DNA from: Rufibacter glacialis
GTDB taxonomy: Bacteria > Bacteroidota > Bacteroidia > Cytophagales > Hymenobacteraceae
Reading direction: 5' to 3'
DNA: 64,000 nt
Assembly (NCBI RefSeq): GCF_008271745.1
Contig: NZ_VKKZ01000022.1
Location: forward strand, 434,001 to 498,000
Below, piece after piece: positions 13,485-19,267 of this stretch (positions within the stretch are counted from its first letter, which is position 1; each line of letters starts with the position of its first letter). Under the pieces are notes generated by a model. It had not been told where the DNA came from, made no database searches, and saw nothing but the letters and a program-made list of their open reading frames with translations. The position numbers and the translations under genes were made by a program.

Positions 13485-13558
13485 GCTCCTACAGAAAAGC
13501 CTCGTTTTGGTGGTGTTTTTAATAAAGCAGCGCCAAAACGAGGCTTTTCTGTAGGAGC
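13485..13558. terminator. 26-bp-stem bidirectional terminator containing a palindrome copy
   Basis: Perfect 26-bp arms 13485-13510 and 13533-13558 around a 22-nt loop, between the convergent TelA operon and the CheB/CheR kinase gene. Its inner part (13503-13540: cgttttgg, ggtgttttt, aataaagcagc, ccaaaacg) is a member of the dispersed palindrome family, here extended by GC-rich arms. Confidence 0.9.
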
Positions 13559-13576: not shown

Positions 13577-16500
13577 TTATTTTGGGAGGAACACCCTAAA
13601 CGTGGTGCCTTCGCCTAGATGGCTGTCTACCTCTATTTTGCCGCCGGCATTGTTCAGGATCTTCTTCACCATGTACAATCCAATGCCCGTGCCTTCCACA
13701 TGGTCATGGAAGCGTTGGAACATGGAGAACAGCTGCTCCTGCTGTTCCTGGGGAAGCCCCAACCCGTTGTCTTGCACCTCCAGCACCAGGTACTTCTTCT
13801 GTTCCTGGCACCTCACGGTAATCCTGGGCTCCCGTTCCGGGGACCGGTATTTGATGGCGTTGGAGATCAGGTTATAGACAATGCTGCGCAAATTCTTCTC
13901 AGAGAAGGAGATATAAGGGCATTGGCTTACATCCAGGTCCAGGTGAGCTCCGGCTTCCTTGATCAAAGGGTCCAGGTCAAGGCTTACGTCCTGCACCAGA
14001 TGGGCCAGGTCTACGCTGGTCACATCAGTGCTGTGGTCATTCTGGAGCTTGGTGATCTCGGTGAGGTTACCAATGGTTTTCTTGAAACGCTCAATGGCGC
14101 CCTGCATCATGTTCATGATCTGCTGCACGTCCATCATCTCAAAATCCTCGCGGGGCAGTTCTACCTGCAGTTCCCGTAATAGGGCCTCAATGTTGTGGAT
14201 AGGGGCTTTTAGATCATGGGAGGCAGTGTACACGAAATTGTCAAGGTCATCAATCACGCGCAGCAAGTGGGCATTGGTGTCTTTGAGTTTCATCTGCGTG
14301 TCTTTCAGGTCTGAGAGGTCAATGAAGGAACCCAGCACGCGGTACGGCACCTGGTACTCATTGTGCAGGATGTAGGCCCGGTTGTAGACAAAGGCAAACG
14401 AACCATCGGCGCGGGTAAGCTTGAACTCTTCCACCCATTGGTCCTGACCTGAGTTAATGGCCTCATTGATGCCTTTGATCACCCGCTGCTTGTCTTCGGG
14501 GTGGATTTTCCCAAACCAGGCGTTAATCCCCTTGCCCATTTCCTCGGGTTCGTAGCCTAAGATGGGTTTGAGGGTGTCACTCCACCAGAGCTCGTTGGTG
14601 ATGAGGTTCCAGTCCCAGACCACGTCATTGGTGGCCATGGATACCAGCCGGAAGCGTTCCTGGCTTTCAGATAACTCTTTGGTTCTTTCTGCTACCCGTA
14701 CCTCCAATTCCGTGTTCAGTTTGATAAGGTCTTCCTCGGCCCGTTTCAGGTCTTCATAGGCCATCAGGATCTTCTCCTCACTTATCCGCTTCTCGGTGAT
14801 GTCACCCATGGTGACGGTCAAGCCTTCGCCCATCTGGGCGGCAGCCACCTCATACCAATTGCGCTGACCGTTTATTTCCAGGCCCTGCTCTATGTGCAGG
14901 GGCTGCCCGGTTTCCACCACCTGAACGAATTTTTTGAACAACCCGGATTTCTTTAAAAAAGCCATCTCGTGCAATACGCTCTGGTGCAAGAGTTGGGCTT
15001 GTGATTTCCCTATCAGTTGCTCCGCTTTCCGGTTGAGCATGCTCCACCGGAAATCCACTATTTCCTGTTCCTCATTTCGTTCCGCCTGGAACGCCATGAT
15101 GTTGTTGAGCGAACTGTTCAAGACGCCCTGCACCACATTGCTGAGGGTTTTCATGGTGGTGATTTCCACAAAGCTTAACACCACCCCGTCTTTGGTGCCG
15201 TCATGTTTGAGGTAGGGGATGATCCGCATCAGGAAGTACTTACCCTTGGTAGTCTCCAGTTCCCGCTCTACCTCCGTGGAGGTGTTGTTCACTTTCTGGA
15301 TGTCTTCCAGCCAGCCACTGTACTTCAGGTTATGCGACAGGTGGTGGATGGGTCGGCCTATGTCTAAGTCCATGATGTTGATCAGCTGCATGACCGTGGG
15401 GGTGAATTTCCTGATGGCCAGGTGATGGTCCAGGAAGAGCTGCCCTATGTTGGAGCTTCTGATGTAGTTGTCCAAATCTTCGTTCAGCTCCTGCAGTTCT
15501 TTTATCTTGAGCTGGTGCTCAGAGTTCACCGTATGCAGCTCCTCATTGAGCGACTGCATCTCTTCATTGGAGCTTTGCAGTTCCTCATTGGACGACATGA
15601 GTTCTTCATTGGTTGACTGCAGTTCTTCATTGGAGGTGCTCAGGTCCTGCACGGTCAGATGAAGGCTTTCACGGGCCTCCTTCAATTCGGCCTCTAAAAT
15701 GGAAAGCTGGTGGAAATAATCGGTGTCTGTCTCAGAGACCAAGGAAGGCTGCAGGGTTTTGAGCGAGGGGTTGGCTTTCCCTACCTCCTGGAGCAGCACC
15801 AGCAACACCTTGGGCAGGTCTTTCTCCACGGAGATAGGTTTCACCGTAAGGTTCACCAGCTGGGTTTTTGAACCCAATGCTACCATGACCTGTCTGGAGA
15901 GGGTTTTGTGGGTTTTGAGCACCTTTCTGATCTCCACGCTCAAGGTGACGGCCAGTTCCTTAGGCACCATTTCCAAGAGGTTCAGTTGCAGCCGTTTCTG
16001 GGGTAGTTTCAGGAAACGGTTGAAATCGCCCACGCCGTGCAAAAGGTGGTAGTTGTCATCAATGTAGAGGCCGGTCATCTTCAGGTCATCGGCCACGGCA
16101 TCTAGGAACAGTTCATTGTACTTAAGGGCCTGCGCACTCCGGTAGGTGGTGCCCCGGCCTTCAGAAGAGGCATGGGAGTGATGGCTTACCCCGTAGGTCT
16201 GTTGGATTCCCTTGCTTTCTTTCACCTTCTGGAAAATCTTCCATTTCCGGTCCTTTTCCACGAAGAAGTTCTTCAACTCCCCAATGTGCTCACTTGGGCC
16301 CAGGAACAGGTACCCCTCCAGCTTCAAGGCGTACGGGAACACCGACATTACCTTCTTCTGGAGGTCTGGGTTCAGGTAGATGAGCATGTTGCGGCACGAG
16401 ATAAGGTCTATGCGGCTAAAGGGAGGGTCTTTCTGCAGGTCATGCTGGGCAAACACCACCAGTTGCCGCAGGTCTTCCTTGATGGTGTAGCGGTTGCTCT

Positions 16501-17659
16501 TGAAATGGAAGAACTGCTGCAACCGCTTCTCTGAGATTTCTTTGGCAATGGAGGCCGGATAAACACCCTTAGAGGCCTGCCTGATGGCGCGCTGGTCAAT
16601 GTCCGTGGCGAACAGCTTCACCTGCGGTTCCCGGCCTACTTTCTGAAAACCCTCCTGAAACAGCATGGCAATGGAATAGGCTTCCTCGCCGGTGCTGCAC
16701 GCCGCCACCCACACCTTGATGGTTTCCTCCGGAGGGGTATTGGCAATGATGGTAGGGATTATCTCCTGCTCCAGCACGTCAAAGGCCTCCGGATCCCGGA
16801 AAAAGCGGGTCACGCCAATCAGGAATTCCTGGCAGAGCTGCTTGATCTCAGCAGGGTTCTCATGGATGTAGGTGAGGTACGCTGGCAGGGAGGCCACCTC
16901 CAGCAGGTCCATCCGCTTTTTAAGGCGGCGGTAGATGGTGCCCTGCTTGTAGCTCTTGAAATTGGTTTGGGTATGGGTACAGATGAGGTCCAGGATTTCC
17001 TGGAGTACTTCCTCGTTTTCTATGCTTCCGTCCTGTTCGGTCAGGTTCTGCACCAATGGGAGCTGGCGGGTGTATTCCATGATTTCATGGGGCATGTGCT
17101 CTGGGGCGAAAACATAATCCACGGCCCCGGTGTCAATGGCACTGCGGGGCATGCCGTCAAATTTGGCGGTAGCCGGGTCTTGTACCATCACCATGCCCCC
17201 GGCCGCCTTGATCATCTTCACGCCTTTGGTACCGTCTGTGCCGGTGCCAGAAAGCACGAGGCCAATGGCATACCGGCCCCGGTCCTTGGCCAGGGACTCA
17301 AAAAAGACATCAATGGCGAAGTTAGGCTCCCGGTTCCTGATTTGGTCCACCAGGCGTAACCGGCCATTCTGGAGGGTCAGCTGCTTGCCGCTGGGCAGCA
17401 CATAGATACAGTTGGGGCGGGTGACCATGTCATGCTCCGCTTCCTGCACCCGCATTTGGGTATGCTTAGACAGCAGCTCTGCCATCAGGCTCTTATGGTC
17501 AGGCGACAGGTGCTGGATAATGACAAACGAAAAGCTGGAGTTATTTGGAAAATGGTCAAATAACTTATGAATAGCCTCCAGGCCACCCGCAGAAGCCCCT
17601 ATCCCTACCAGATAATGGTCTGTTTTAGGGGCAGTGGCTGGCTTTTTCAAATTTACCAT
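13577..17659 (-). CDS. CheB-CheR-PAS hybrid with histidine kinase
   Basis: A 1360-aa signalling protein. In order: CheB methylesterase (about 14-190; ASAGGLEAI with the catalytic Ser, His in QHLSPDHKS, Asp in GTGTDGTKG), CheR methyltransferase (about 215-480; SAM-binding VAACSTGEEAYS, ISCRNMLIYL), a long coiled coil of NEELQSxNEE heptads (about 640-740), a CheB/CheR-type PAS, two further PAS/PAC domains, HisKA (H-box YTASHDLKAPIHN, about 1150) and HATPase_c (about 1250-1360; LISNAIKY, DNGLGL, GTGIGLYMVKK). No receiver domain is visible, so phosphate must pass to a separate regulator. All catalytic residues are present. It lies 51 bp after the phytochrome gene on the same strand and is its likely output partner. 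Confidence 0.93.
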   Translation of the reverse strand: MVNLKKPATAPKTDHYLVGIGASAGGLEAIHKLFDHFPNNSSFSFVIIQHLSPDHKSLMAELLSKHTQMRVQEAEHDMVTRPNCIYVLPSGKQLTLQNGRLRLVDQIRNREPNFAIDVFFESLAKDRGRYAIGLVLSGTGTDGTKGVKMIKAAGGMVMVQDPATAKFDGMPRSAIDTGAVDYVFAPEHMPHEIMEYTRQLPLVQNLTEQDGSIENEEVLQEILDLICTHTQTNFKSYKQGTIYRRLKKRMDLLEVASLPAYLTYIHENPAEIKQLCQEFLIGVTRFFRDPEAFDVLEQEIIPTIIANTPPEETIKVWVAACSTGEEAYSIAMLFQEGFQKVGREPQVKLFATDIDQRAIRQASKGVYPASIAKEISEKRLQQFFHFKSNRYTIKEDLRQLVVFAQHDLQKDPPFSRIDLISCRNMLIYLNPDLQKKVMSVFPYALKLEGYLFLGPSEHIGELKNFFVEKDRKWKIFQKVKESKGIQQTYGVSHHSHASSEGRGTTYRSAQALKYNELFLDAVADDLKMTGLYIDDNYHLLHGVGDFNRFLKLPQKRLQLNLLEMVPKELAVTLSVEIRKVLKTHKTLSRQVMVALGSKTQLVNLTVKPISVEKDLPKVLLVLLQEVGKANPSLKTLQPSLVSETDTDYFHQLSILEAELKEARESLHLTVQDLSTSNEELQSTNEELMSSNEELQSSNEEMQSLNEELHTVNSEHQLKIKELQELNEDLDNYIRSSNIGQLFLDHHLAIRKFTPTVMQLINIMDLDIGRPIHHLSHNLKYSGWLEDIQKVNNTSTEVERELETTKGKYFLMRIIPYLKHDGTKDGVVLSFVEITTMKTLSNVVQGVLNSSLNNIMAFQAERNEEQEIVDFRWSMLNRKAEQLIGKSQAQLLHQSVLHEMAFLKKSGLFKKFVQVVETGQPLHIEQGLEINGQRNWYEVAAAQMGEGLTVTMGDITEKRISEEKILMAYEDLKRAEEDLIKLNTELEVRVAERTKELSESQERFRLVSMATNDVVWDWNLITNELWWSDTLKPILGYEPEEMGKGINAWFGKIHPEDKQRVIKGINEAINSGQDQWVEEFKLTRADGSFAFVYNRAYILHNEYQVPYRVLGSFIDLSDLKDTQMKLKDTNAHLLRVIDDLDNFVYTASHDLKAPIHNIEALLRELQVELPREDFEMMDVQQIMNMMQGAIERFKKTIGNLTEITKLQNDHSTDVTSVDLAHLVQDVSLDLDPLIKEAGAHLDLDVSQCPYISFSEKNLRSIVYNLISNAIKYRSPEREPRITVRCQEQKKYLVLEVQDNGLGLPQEQQEQLFSMFQRFHDHVEGTGIGLYMVKKILNNAGGKIEVDSHLGEGTTFRVFLPK

Positions 17660-17710
17660 GGGAAATGGTGTTAAAGTTCTATCTTAAAAGAAACTGGGCA
17701 AGGAGGGTTC

Positions 17711-19267
17711 TCAATATCTTTCCTTGATAATTTTTTCCAAGACAGCACTTCGTAAGGATTCAGCGGCCTCTACTTCTTCTTCCAACCAAGGCAGGGAGGT
17801 ATGTTTCACGGTTTCTTGGTAGGTCGCAAAGGAGTTGCGAGGGTGGTAGGACTTTCCGTCTGGCTCCAACTTAATAGCCTGGTTAGGGTCTCCGCCCCAG
17901 CTTATGGTCTGGAGCACCTCGGCCCTAAAACCCAGGATATAATCCCCCTGGGCGGCATTGATAGGAAGTACAATCAAGCCACTGGCCACGTCTTTGTAGT
18001 CCCGGGCCCGCACGTATTGGTGGGGGAGGGTGTCGGTGGCAAAAAGCTTGTCTGTATTGTTTCGGCGGAGCCAGTAAATCAATTCTTTCAGGTCTTGGGC
18101 CGAAGGCGTTTCCCCACCGGTCCACACAGCTCCCTCAAACAACAGTGCCGCCCCGGAAAGGTTTAGCAGGTTCATAATGGTGGAGGCACCAGACAAAAGG
18201 CCCTCTGAGAGAGAGGCGGTAGTATACAGCTGTTCCAGTAGTTGGGCATGAATGCCCCGCAACTGGGCCCGCAACGTAATGGTGTGCTCCCGCTCTTTCG
18301 CCGCCAGCTGGGCTGATACAATTCCCGCCAGTAAATCCAGCGCCGACCGAATCTCATAACTGGGGTTCATGGGCTGTCTGTGGTGGCAGGAAACCAGGCC
18401 CCACAGTTTGTTGTCCACTATAAAAGGCATTGACATGGAAGCCCTGACTTGCAGGTTGGCCAGGTACTCCAAATGCACGGTGGCCACACTTCTGAGGTTA
18501 CAGTCAGATAGATCGGTGAATTGCTGGGTGAGCGGGTTGATGAGGGGCCTTAGCCGGACGGGGGTGTACTCTCTGGTTGGAATCAGGCGGTAAGGGTTGC
18601 TGTAGTACAAATCCCTTGATTGTTTGGGGACATCAGAGGCCGGGAAACGCAACCCCAGGTAATCATCCATGCCTTCTTCCTTGGCTTGGCCTATGACCAC
18701 CCCGTTCCATTGAGGGTCAAACTGATAGGCCAGCACGCGGTCAAATCCGGTTAGTTTCTTTATTTCCTCTACCGTGATCTGAGCAATTTCCTGGATGTTT
18801 TCCGCCCCTTTTATCAAAGAGGTGAGGTATTTGATTTGCTGGTATAATTCAAGGAAAGAGTCTTTCGCAGAAGAGCTTTGGTTGTCTTCTAGTTCAACCA
18901 ATACATAGTCTTCTCTTGGGTGAACCAAGGCGGTGTAGGCGGCTTCTTTTTCCTCTACCAGGAACGTGAGGCTGAAAGGTACTTTTACCTGGTTCACCTT
19001 TCTCTGCACATGCGTCTTGAAAAGCTCAAACTGCGATGGCGGAAGAATAGCGGAAATAGGCTTGTCCAGGATATCAGAAGCTGGTATGCCCAGCAATTGC
19101 TCCACGTTCTCACTTACTTGTACTAGCCGCAGGCTGTCTTTTTCTAAGGTAAGCAAGACACCGTGGGGTTGGATAAGATTTACTAAATGCAGCGGGATGC
19201 TTCCGCAAAAGTCAGAGTCGTAGTTTTTTTCAATGGTGAAGCTAATGGGGGCCTGCTTTTTTTCCAT
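17711..19267 (-). CDS. Bacteriophytochrome sensory core (PAS-GAF-PHY) lacking a kinase
   Basis: A 518-aa protein. The N-terminal PAS domain (about 20-130) carries Cys21 before the LIQPHG motif, the position of the biliverdin-attaching Cys of bacteriophytochromes. The GAF domain (about 150-330) has PASDVP (209-214 region) and VHLEYLANLQVRASMSMPF. The PHY domain (about 345-500) contains SWGGDP and PRNSF, the tongue residues that contact the chromophore pocket. It therefore should bind biliverdin and switch between red- and far-red-absorbing forms. Unlike standard phytochromes it stops after PHY plus a short helix, with no histidine kinase. The following gene, 51 bp downstream, encodes a histidine kinase hybrid. 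No heme oxygenase gene is in the window. Confidence 0.92.
   Translation of the reverse strand: MEKKQAPISFTIEKNYDSDFCGSIPLHLVNLIQPHGVLLTLEKDSLRLVQVSENVEQLLGIPASDILDKPISAILPPSQFELFKTHVQRKVNQVKVPFSLTFLVEEKEAAYTALVHPREDYVLVELEDNQSSSAKDSFLELYQQIKYLTSLIKGAENIQEIAQITVEEIKKLTGFDRVLAYQFDPQWNGVVIGQAKEEGMDDYLGLRFPASDVPKQSRDLYYSNPYRLIPTREYTPVRLRPLINPLTQQFTDLSDCNLRSVATVHLEYLANLQVRASMSMPFIVDNKLWGLVSCHHRQPMNPSYEIRSALDLLAGIVSAQLAAKEREHTITLRAQLRGIHAQLLEQLYTTASLSEGLLSGASTIMNLLNLSGAALLFEGAVWTGGETPSAQDLKELIYWLRRNNTDKLFATDTLPHQYVRARDYKDVASGLIVLPINAAQGDYILGFRAEVLQTISWGGDPNQAIKLEPDGKSYHPRNSFATYQETVKHTSLPWLEEEVEAAESLRSAVLEKIIKERY

Follow-up and report, generated by a model that had tools for sequence, protein, structure and literature searches.

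In the genome of Rufibacter glacialis (5.32 Mb; G000 in the genome set used here), the window, a stretch of 64,000 nucleotides on NZ_VKKZ01000022.1 (contig C21), encodes side by side on the minus strand a phytochrome photosensory core that lacks any output domain and a histidine kinase that carries CheB and CheR domains. The best reading of this locus is that the split phytochrome and the separate CheB-CheR kinase probably constitute a two-protein light-regulated kinase, and similar gene pairs across the order Cytophagales show that a two-protein phytochrome system of the order is real, old and widespread. In the proposed mechanism, the phytochrome would bind a bilin through Cys21, photoswitch, and act on the neighboring CheB-CheR-PAS-kinase by protein-protein contact that alters phosphorylation of the kinase at His1148, with phosphotransfer most likely to a single-domain response regulator. 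Methyl esters on glutamates of an EELxSS coil, in the kinase itself or in a sister protein, would probably be placed by the CheR domain and cleaved off by the CheB domain, and this turnover could let the light response adapt or tune its gain. The gene pair, its conservation and its active-site residues were observed; the contact, the phosphotransfer, the target of methylation and the source of bilin are what we infer from them.

The sensor is a free-standing protein of 518 aa (17711..19267), in which Pfam recognizes only PAS_2 (residues 24-127; 18887..19198), GAF (residues 158-319; 18311..18796) and PHY (residues 339-515; 17723..18253), the C terminus falling three residues past the PHY match. 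Its top PDB sequence matches are phytochromes, and it has the tridomain architecture of a bacteriophytochrome core together with the N-terminal Cys, PASDxP motif, two pocket His and PRxSF motif: Cys21 (19205..19207) is the predicted biliverdin attachment site, D212 lies in PASDVP, PRNSF occupies residues 476-480, and the pocket His are presumably the equivalents of His260 and His290 of DrBphP. The original prediction, made from the sequence alone, of a 518-aa phytochrome with the biliverdin Cys, PASDxP and PRxSF and without an output domain was thus borne out by the open reading frame, Pfam and the motif check. The score of the sensor against the BphP family NF041576 is 282.5 bits, compared to a cut-off of 1040, and it has no C-terminal kinase of its own. 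The closest relatives of the protein in a scan of genome contigs are from Rufibacter species and have at most 78% sequence identity.

The kinase gene (13577..17659, 1360 aa) begins 51 bp after the sensor stop codon, so that the predicted CheB-CheR-PAS histidine kinase downstream was also found as described. It encodes, by Pfam, a CheB methylesterase domain (residues 18-193; 17081..17608; S23, H50 and D142 by alignment), a CheR methyltransferase (residues 219-468; 16256..17005; CheR_N at 219-269 and CheR at 283-468, also aligned), a heptad coil of EELQST, EELMSS, EELQSS and EEMQSL (residues 678-704; 15548..15628) that resembles the methylation consensus of methyl-accepting chemotaxis proteins (MCPs), three PAS-type domains (PAS_10 at residues 729-834, 15158..15475; a second match at residues 870-958; PAS_3 at residues 1024-1110, 14330..14590), His1148 as the predicted phospho-acceptor in the H box SHDLKAP (14216..14218), and HATPase_c (residues 1254-1359; 13583..13900; also aligned). 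The protein therefore has both domains of a CheB-CheR fusion with their catalytic residues and the H, N, G1 and G2 boxes of a sensor kinase. Among 36 paired kinases, the kinase boxes, His1148 included, are intact in all. In L124 the CheB-CheR part is in another frame and unaligned; in the other 35, the CheB Ser-His-Asp triad is always intact, and so are the CheR motifs, apart from one Glu-to-Gln substitution (L122). Since these residues are near-invariant, the CheB, CheR and kinase domains are all likely to be active.

Conservation of the gene pair, proposed as a check with the original prediction, was confirmed by searching genome contigs with the phytochrome, which located 23 loci. In 22 of these a CheB-CheR kinase with 61-84% sequence identity follows the phytochrome on the same strand; the odd one is a Rhodoferax phytochrome (L024) that is 30% identical and in whose surroundings kinase domains are matched only weakly. 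PHY is present in 62 of 194 genomes sampled evenly across the order. Free-standing phytochromes were defined as frames of 507-550 aa, with G118:C125 (504 aa, at a contig edge), the frame-shifted G214, a frame-shifted second match in G162 and a partial match in G183 (430 aa) dropped, and 15 of the 18 that resulted adjoin a CheB-CheR kinase. Near the other three (G115, G138, G177), a heme oxygenase and small proteins of 141-154 aa are encoded instead. Loci of this kind, L130, L131 and L132, comprise heme oxygenase, a phytochrome of 503-526 aa and the 141-154-aa proteins, without a CheB-CheR kinase.

With the window, the 22 relatives and 13 more pairs, and with G207/L011 (identical coordinates) counted once, 36 pairs from several families of the order were compared. 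The phytochrome precedes the kinase in 33 pairs; the order is reversed in three (G125, G164, G176), where the genes overlap by 11 bp. In one pair of the phytochrome-first order (L124, G091) a frameshift interrupts the kinase; that this might be a genuine further division of the protein was considered and set aside, because the frame changes between the pieces, which was taken as a frameshift or assembly error. The bilin pocket is preserved throughout: Cys21, D212, R259, H265, H295 and the checked Tyr and Ser are invariant in all 36 sensors, as are the P, R, S and F of PRNSF, the exception being the His of IQPHG, which is His in 28 and Tyr in eight. In a tree of 59 phytochromes, some rows of which are long-branched (two of them inside the paired clade), the 36 paired sensors form a single clade with support of 100/100, apart from 20 fused phytochromes and three other free-standing ones. 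Chance adjacency and a recently broken fusion are ruled out by this conservation, the two gene orders and the single old clade. A fused phytochrome-CheB-CheR protein that would serve as a Rosetta stone was looked for among long phytochrome frames (2431 aa in G098; 1295 and 965 aa in G177; 1151 aa in G163; 974 aa in G110; not all of the other frames of 800-1006 aa), and none of the frames fetched matched the CheB or CheR part. The 2431-aa phytochrome kinase of G098 (L146:1815-9110) adjoins a heme oxygenase gene.

A sensor without the helix and kinase that are found after PHY in ordinary bacteriophytochromes must act by contact, and as its pairing with the kinase gene is retained far more often than chance would allow, the light signal probably travels from one protein to the other, as the original prediction had suggested; the contact in trans remains a predicted step. 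The recipient of the phosphoryl group may be one of the single-domain receivers that are encoded near eight of the 30 pair neighborhoods listed (L016, L017, L117, L118, L122, L125, L126 and L127; receiver domain confirmed by Pfam for five of the eight), a set of neighborhoods that is exclusive of L004, L005, L006, L007, L009 and L020. For the proposed methylation feedback on the kinase, there is precedent in the methyltransferase RsbM, which is described in the accessible part of PMC4574943 as acting on a helix of the sensor kinase RsbK. The EELxSS coil is conserved among the paired kinases. Its motif count of three, compared to a mean of 0.76 in shuffled versions of the protein, is by itself weak because the maximum of 300 shuffles was four, so that the regular spacing is what counts.

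Several observations weigh against the two-protein light-regulated kinase as formulated here. The contact, the photochemistry and the methylation are predictions from sequence comparison. The distances among sensors and among kinases agree (r = 0.96), which is in favor of the pair, but the value is not corrected for the common descent of the species. The EELxSS coil is also present in ten of ten CheB-CheR paralogs examined, from ten pair genomes, on contigs without a phytochrome, which rules out the idea that the coil is specific to the phytochrome-linked lineage. In the R. glacialis genome, where a lone partner response regulator was to be sought, none was singled out with a profile of operon-linked response regulators, the matches to which grade into paralogs. 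Matches to the same profile grade into paralogs also in G182, a genome without a phytochrome.

An improbable alternative is that the pair serves as light input to a single chemotaxis-like array, such that light controls the CheB and CheR domains in methylating an MCP rather than in a self-adapting kinase. The R. glacialis genome has one chemotaxis-like operon with an MCP, a CheY-like receiver (by eye), CheB, CheA and CheC, and no CheR; its sole MCP found (L033:5204-10645) spans 1813 aa and contains 13-14 HAMP repeats. Exactly one MCP match is present in each of the 23 pair genomes (this one and the 22 relatives). A lone CheR of 277-285 aa is listed in 14 of the 23 (in R. glacialis the sole candidate is weak, with 28.4 bits in a 288-aa frame), and the CheR of the pair is the only one found in G011, so that it may act on the MCP. 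Nevertheless, the pair is outside che operons in the 30 neighborhoods read, just two sites in the MCP resemble the motif (1554 and 1736), and another CheR in a long frame that could serve the MCP is present in 17 of the 23 genomes. The predicted location of the enzyme outside any chemotaxis operon therefore stands; its separateness from chemotaxis is less clear-cut, as a chemotaxis-like operon exists in the genome and the CheR domain could serve the MCP encoded there.

The original prediction had also named a separate phytochrome kinase encoded elsewhere with a matching partner signature as a finding that would count against the pair. R. glacialis does have a second phytochrome of 756 aa with its own kinase at G000:C2; it belongs to the fused lineage in the tree, however, and is not an obvious partner. 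Of the 23 pair genomes, 17 have a second phytochrome, encoded in frames of 744-776 aa, and the other six have only the split one (G003, G009, G014, G015, G019, G022). A frameshift interrupts the second, fused phytochrome of G162 (L137:4113-6175). It is very unlikely that the two genes of the pair are merely co-transcribed, with the phytochrome taking the fused phytochrome kinase or some other kinase as its partner and the CheB-CheR protein sensing something else, as the second phytochrome of the 17 genomes might suggest, because the six genomes with the split phytochrome only still keep the pair and the adjacency of the two genes is conserved in both gene orders.

The source of the chromophore probably differs between lineages that have the two-protein light-regulated kinase. 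Heme oxygenase, which was to be sought in R. glacialis, was not convincingly found there, and no match to PF01126 above the cut-off was found in any of the 23 pair genomes or in G162; matches below the cut-off in four of the 23 (E 0.014 to 0.5; 0.28 in R. glacialis) are mostly short stretches in longer frames. PF01126 alone was rejected as proof of absence because it misses the divergent enzymes of G082, G150 and G213, and therefore a profile was built from 11 heme oxygenases of the order, for which matches up to E 1 were counted. It matched six of six control genomes of the same family that have heme oxygenase at 6.2e-44 or better (two of these, G199 and G213, had given rows to the profile and four had not), and matched nothing in the 23 pair genomes, G162 or G182, the families HugZ, HemS and PF14518 not having been searched for. 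Thus a convincing HO-1-type heme oxygenase is present in none of the 24 pair genomes of the clade of Rufibacter, Pontibacter and Adhaeribacter (the 23 and G162). Among sampled pair genomes outside the clade, it is present in 12 of 12, directly beside the pair in seven: directly before the phytochrome in G026, G077, G091 and G199 and directly after it in G125, G164 and G176 (confirmed by Pfam for three of these seven copies). PHY and heme oxygenase go together in the 194-genome sample, where both are present in 49 genomes, PHY only in 13 and heme oxygenase only in seven; the sensitive profile was run on 35 genomes, not all of them from this sample.

What the clade does possess is an ABM-fold protein, which in R. 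glacialis is a protein of 99 aa (54.9 bits for PF03992) encoded divergently beside the fused second phytochrome (L034:11317-11616, G000:C2:76316-76612). The ABM copies pass PF03992 with 42.6-54.9 bits (cut-off 23.1), and a profile built from nine copies (E up to 1e-6) gave exactly one match in each of the 23 pair genomes, at 6.5e-47 or better. The protein is present in all 24 clade pair genomes; within the 194-genome sample the profile matches three genomes, all of which have PHY and lack heme oxygenase; G182, a genome of the same family without a phytochrome, has neither ABM nor heme oxygenase. No more than 5 kb separates the gene from a PHY domain in 15 of the 23 genomes, where it is divergent from the second phytochrome in seven, downstream of the second phytochrome in three, and directly beside the split pair in five, either upstream of the phytochrome (G009, G020, G022), which is the place of heme oxygenase in four sister operons, or after the kinase (G014, G015). 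It is retained in all six genomes that have the split phytochrome only, including G003, in which it is found (L140) at the locus where R. glacialis has the fused phytochrome (L034) that G003 lacks. Where ABM is away from phytochromes (L136, L141, L142, L144, L145), it is often close to two genes that by eye resemble those of electron-transfer flavoprotein subunits; such genes also flank the phytochrome operon in L117.

From these comparisons it is tentatively proposed that in this clade bilin is made not by an HO-1-type heme oxygenase but by the ABM-fold protein, which, with a Ser-Trp-His pocket, may have replaced heme oxygenase as the chromophore enzyme and may feed both the fused phytochrome kinase and the two-protein sensor with its putatively self-methylating kinase. 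Trp65 and His75 are invariant in 17 of 17 aligned copies. The top NCBIfam match of the protein is HmuQ (NF053649), the product of which is reportedly biliverdin, at 49.7 bits with a curated cut-off of 130 that is not reached. The title of structure 6ple is of the R26S mutant of MhuD with biliverdin, and so an ABM fold can hold biliverdin.

Other evidence counts against this assignment. Ser6 is found at the catalytic Asn position in all 17 aligned copies, so that the Asn-Trp-His triad that IsdG-family enzymes require (PMC5557675, PMC6018153, in the parts accessible) is incomplete. According to the accessible parts of PMC6018153, PMC9393634, PMC5557675 and PMC7242693, IsdG-type enzymes make bilins other than biliverdin. 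A predicted model of the protein, of modest confidence (mean pLDDT 68.7), has structural matches to ABM proteins in general, which do not separate heme-degrading enzymes from others. The gene is away from phytochromes in eight of the 23 pair genomes and in G162. The 23 genomes examined for heme oxygenase and ABM were chosen for having the pair, and the swap was probably one event in one clade, so that the split of 24 to 12 does not amount to 36 independent observations. Among the 13 genomes of the sample that have PHY without heme oxygenase, three have ABM; the others are G061, G118, G136, G110, G163, G040, G183, G188, G192 and G200. Of these, G061, G118 (a fragmented genome assembly with 7% contamination) and G136 have intact bilin pockets and neither heme oxygenase nor ABM, and therefore other ways exist; the phytochromes of G110 and G163 lack the pocket residues.

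It is quite possible that the ABM protein is some other small oxygenase that travels with phytochromes and that a different non-HO-1 enzyme, of HugZ, HemS or another type, makes the bilin. This would account for the Ser of all 17 copies, the HmuQ score short of its cut-off and the general nature of the structural matches, and the searches made in the pair genomes did not extend to the HugZ and HemS families; it accounts less well for the clade-wide swap from heme oxygenase to ABM, with ABM in the place held by heme oxygenase in sister operons, and for its retention in the six genomes with the split phytochrome only. An unlikely explanation is that the phytochrome does without bilin, or obtains it from elsewhere, and senses something else, or senses light only when biliverdin is supplied. 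The lack of heme oxygenase by either profile in the 24 clade genomes and the intact phytochromes of G061, G118 and G136 are in its favor, but the invariance of the Cys and pocket residues in all 36 pairs argues for a bound bilin, and the clade keeps, often next to its phytochromes, a protein with a fold to which heme-degrading enzymes belong.

Directly past the kinase stop codon is a hairpin (13485..13558) with arms of 35 nt that are 91% complementary and a loop of 4 nt, beyond which are genes of the opposite strand, TelA among them; it is a probable terminator between convergent genes. Seven relatives examined have inverted repeats of other sequence at this place, with perfect arms of 13-30 nt.

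The sensor of the two-protein light-regulated kinase resembles the prototypical bacteriophytochrome histidine kinase (BphP with BphO) in its PAS-GAF-PHY core, N-terminal Cys, pocket and tongue motifs and light input to a kinase, but its kinase is separate and contains CheB, CheR and PAS domains, and no HO-1-type heme oxygenase was found in the clade. The phylogenetic survey PMC4422448, in the part accessible, selected fused sensors only. The kinase resembles CheB-CheR fusions with PAS domains in the order of CheB and CheR, the EELxSS coil and PAS_10 past the coil, as do the ten paralogs in ten pair genomes, but the lineage described here is tied to a phytochrome gene. A table note in the accessible part of PMC8396549 refers to cheBR fusions. 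RsbM-RsbK of Bacillus cereus is similar in that a sensor kinase is the target of a methyltransferase in a setting other than chemotaxis (PMC4574943), but there the methyltransferase is a separate protein that is not known to have a cognate methylesterase, and a phytochrome is not involved. The ABM protein shares its fold and the Trp and His of the triad with the heme-degrading enzymes IsdG, MhuD and HmuQ (the last being its top NCBIfam match), but has Ser for the catalytic Asn and is often encoded beside phytochromes. In the literature searched, which covered few subscription papers, no description was found of a phytochrome fed by an ABM-type enzyme, and none of the papers listed for genus names contained the word bacteriophytochrome. 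Neither an ABM-phytochrome link nor this gene pair appears in the accessible parts of PMC6018153, PMC9393634, PMC7242693, PMC12670364, PMC4422448, PMC4574943, PMC5557675, PMC2644699 and PMC8396549. Such absence is weak evidence of novelty.

With a split phytochrome and a CheB-CheR kinase, light sensing and methyl-ester adaptation would meet in a single kinase, and because the two parts are separable, the step from sensor to kinase is open to study across a protein interface. If it is true that the ABM protein makes the chromophore, bilin photoreceptors would be independent of HO-1-type heme oxygenase, the reading of genomes for light sensing would change, and another bilin-making tool would become available for phytochrome-based reporters.

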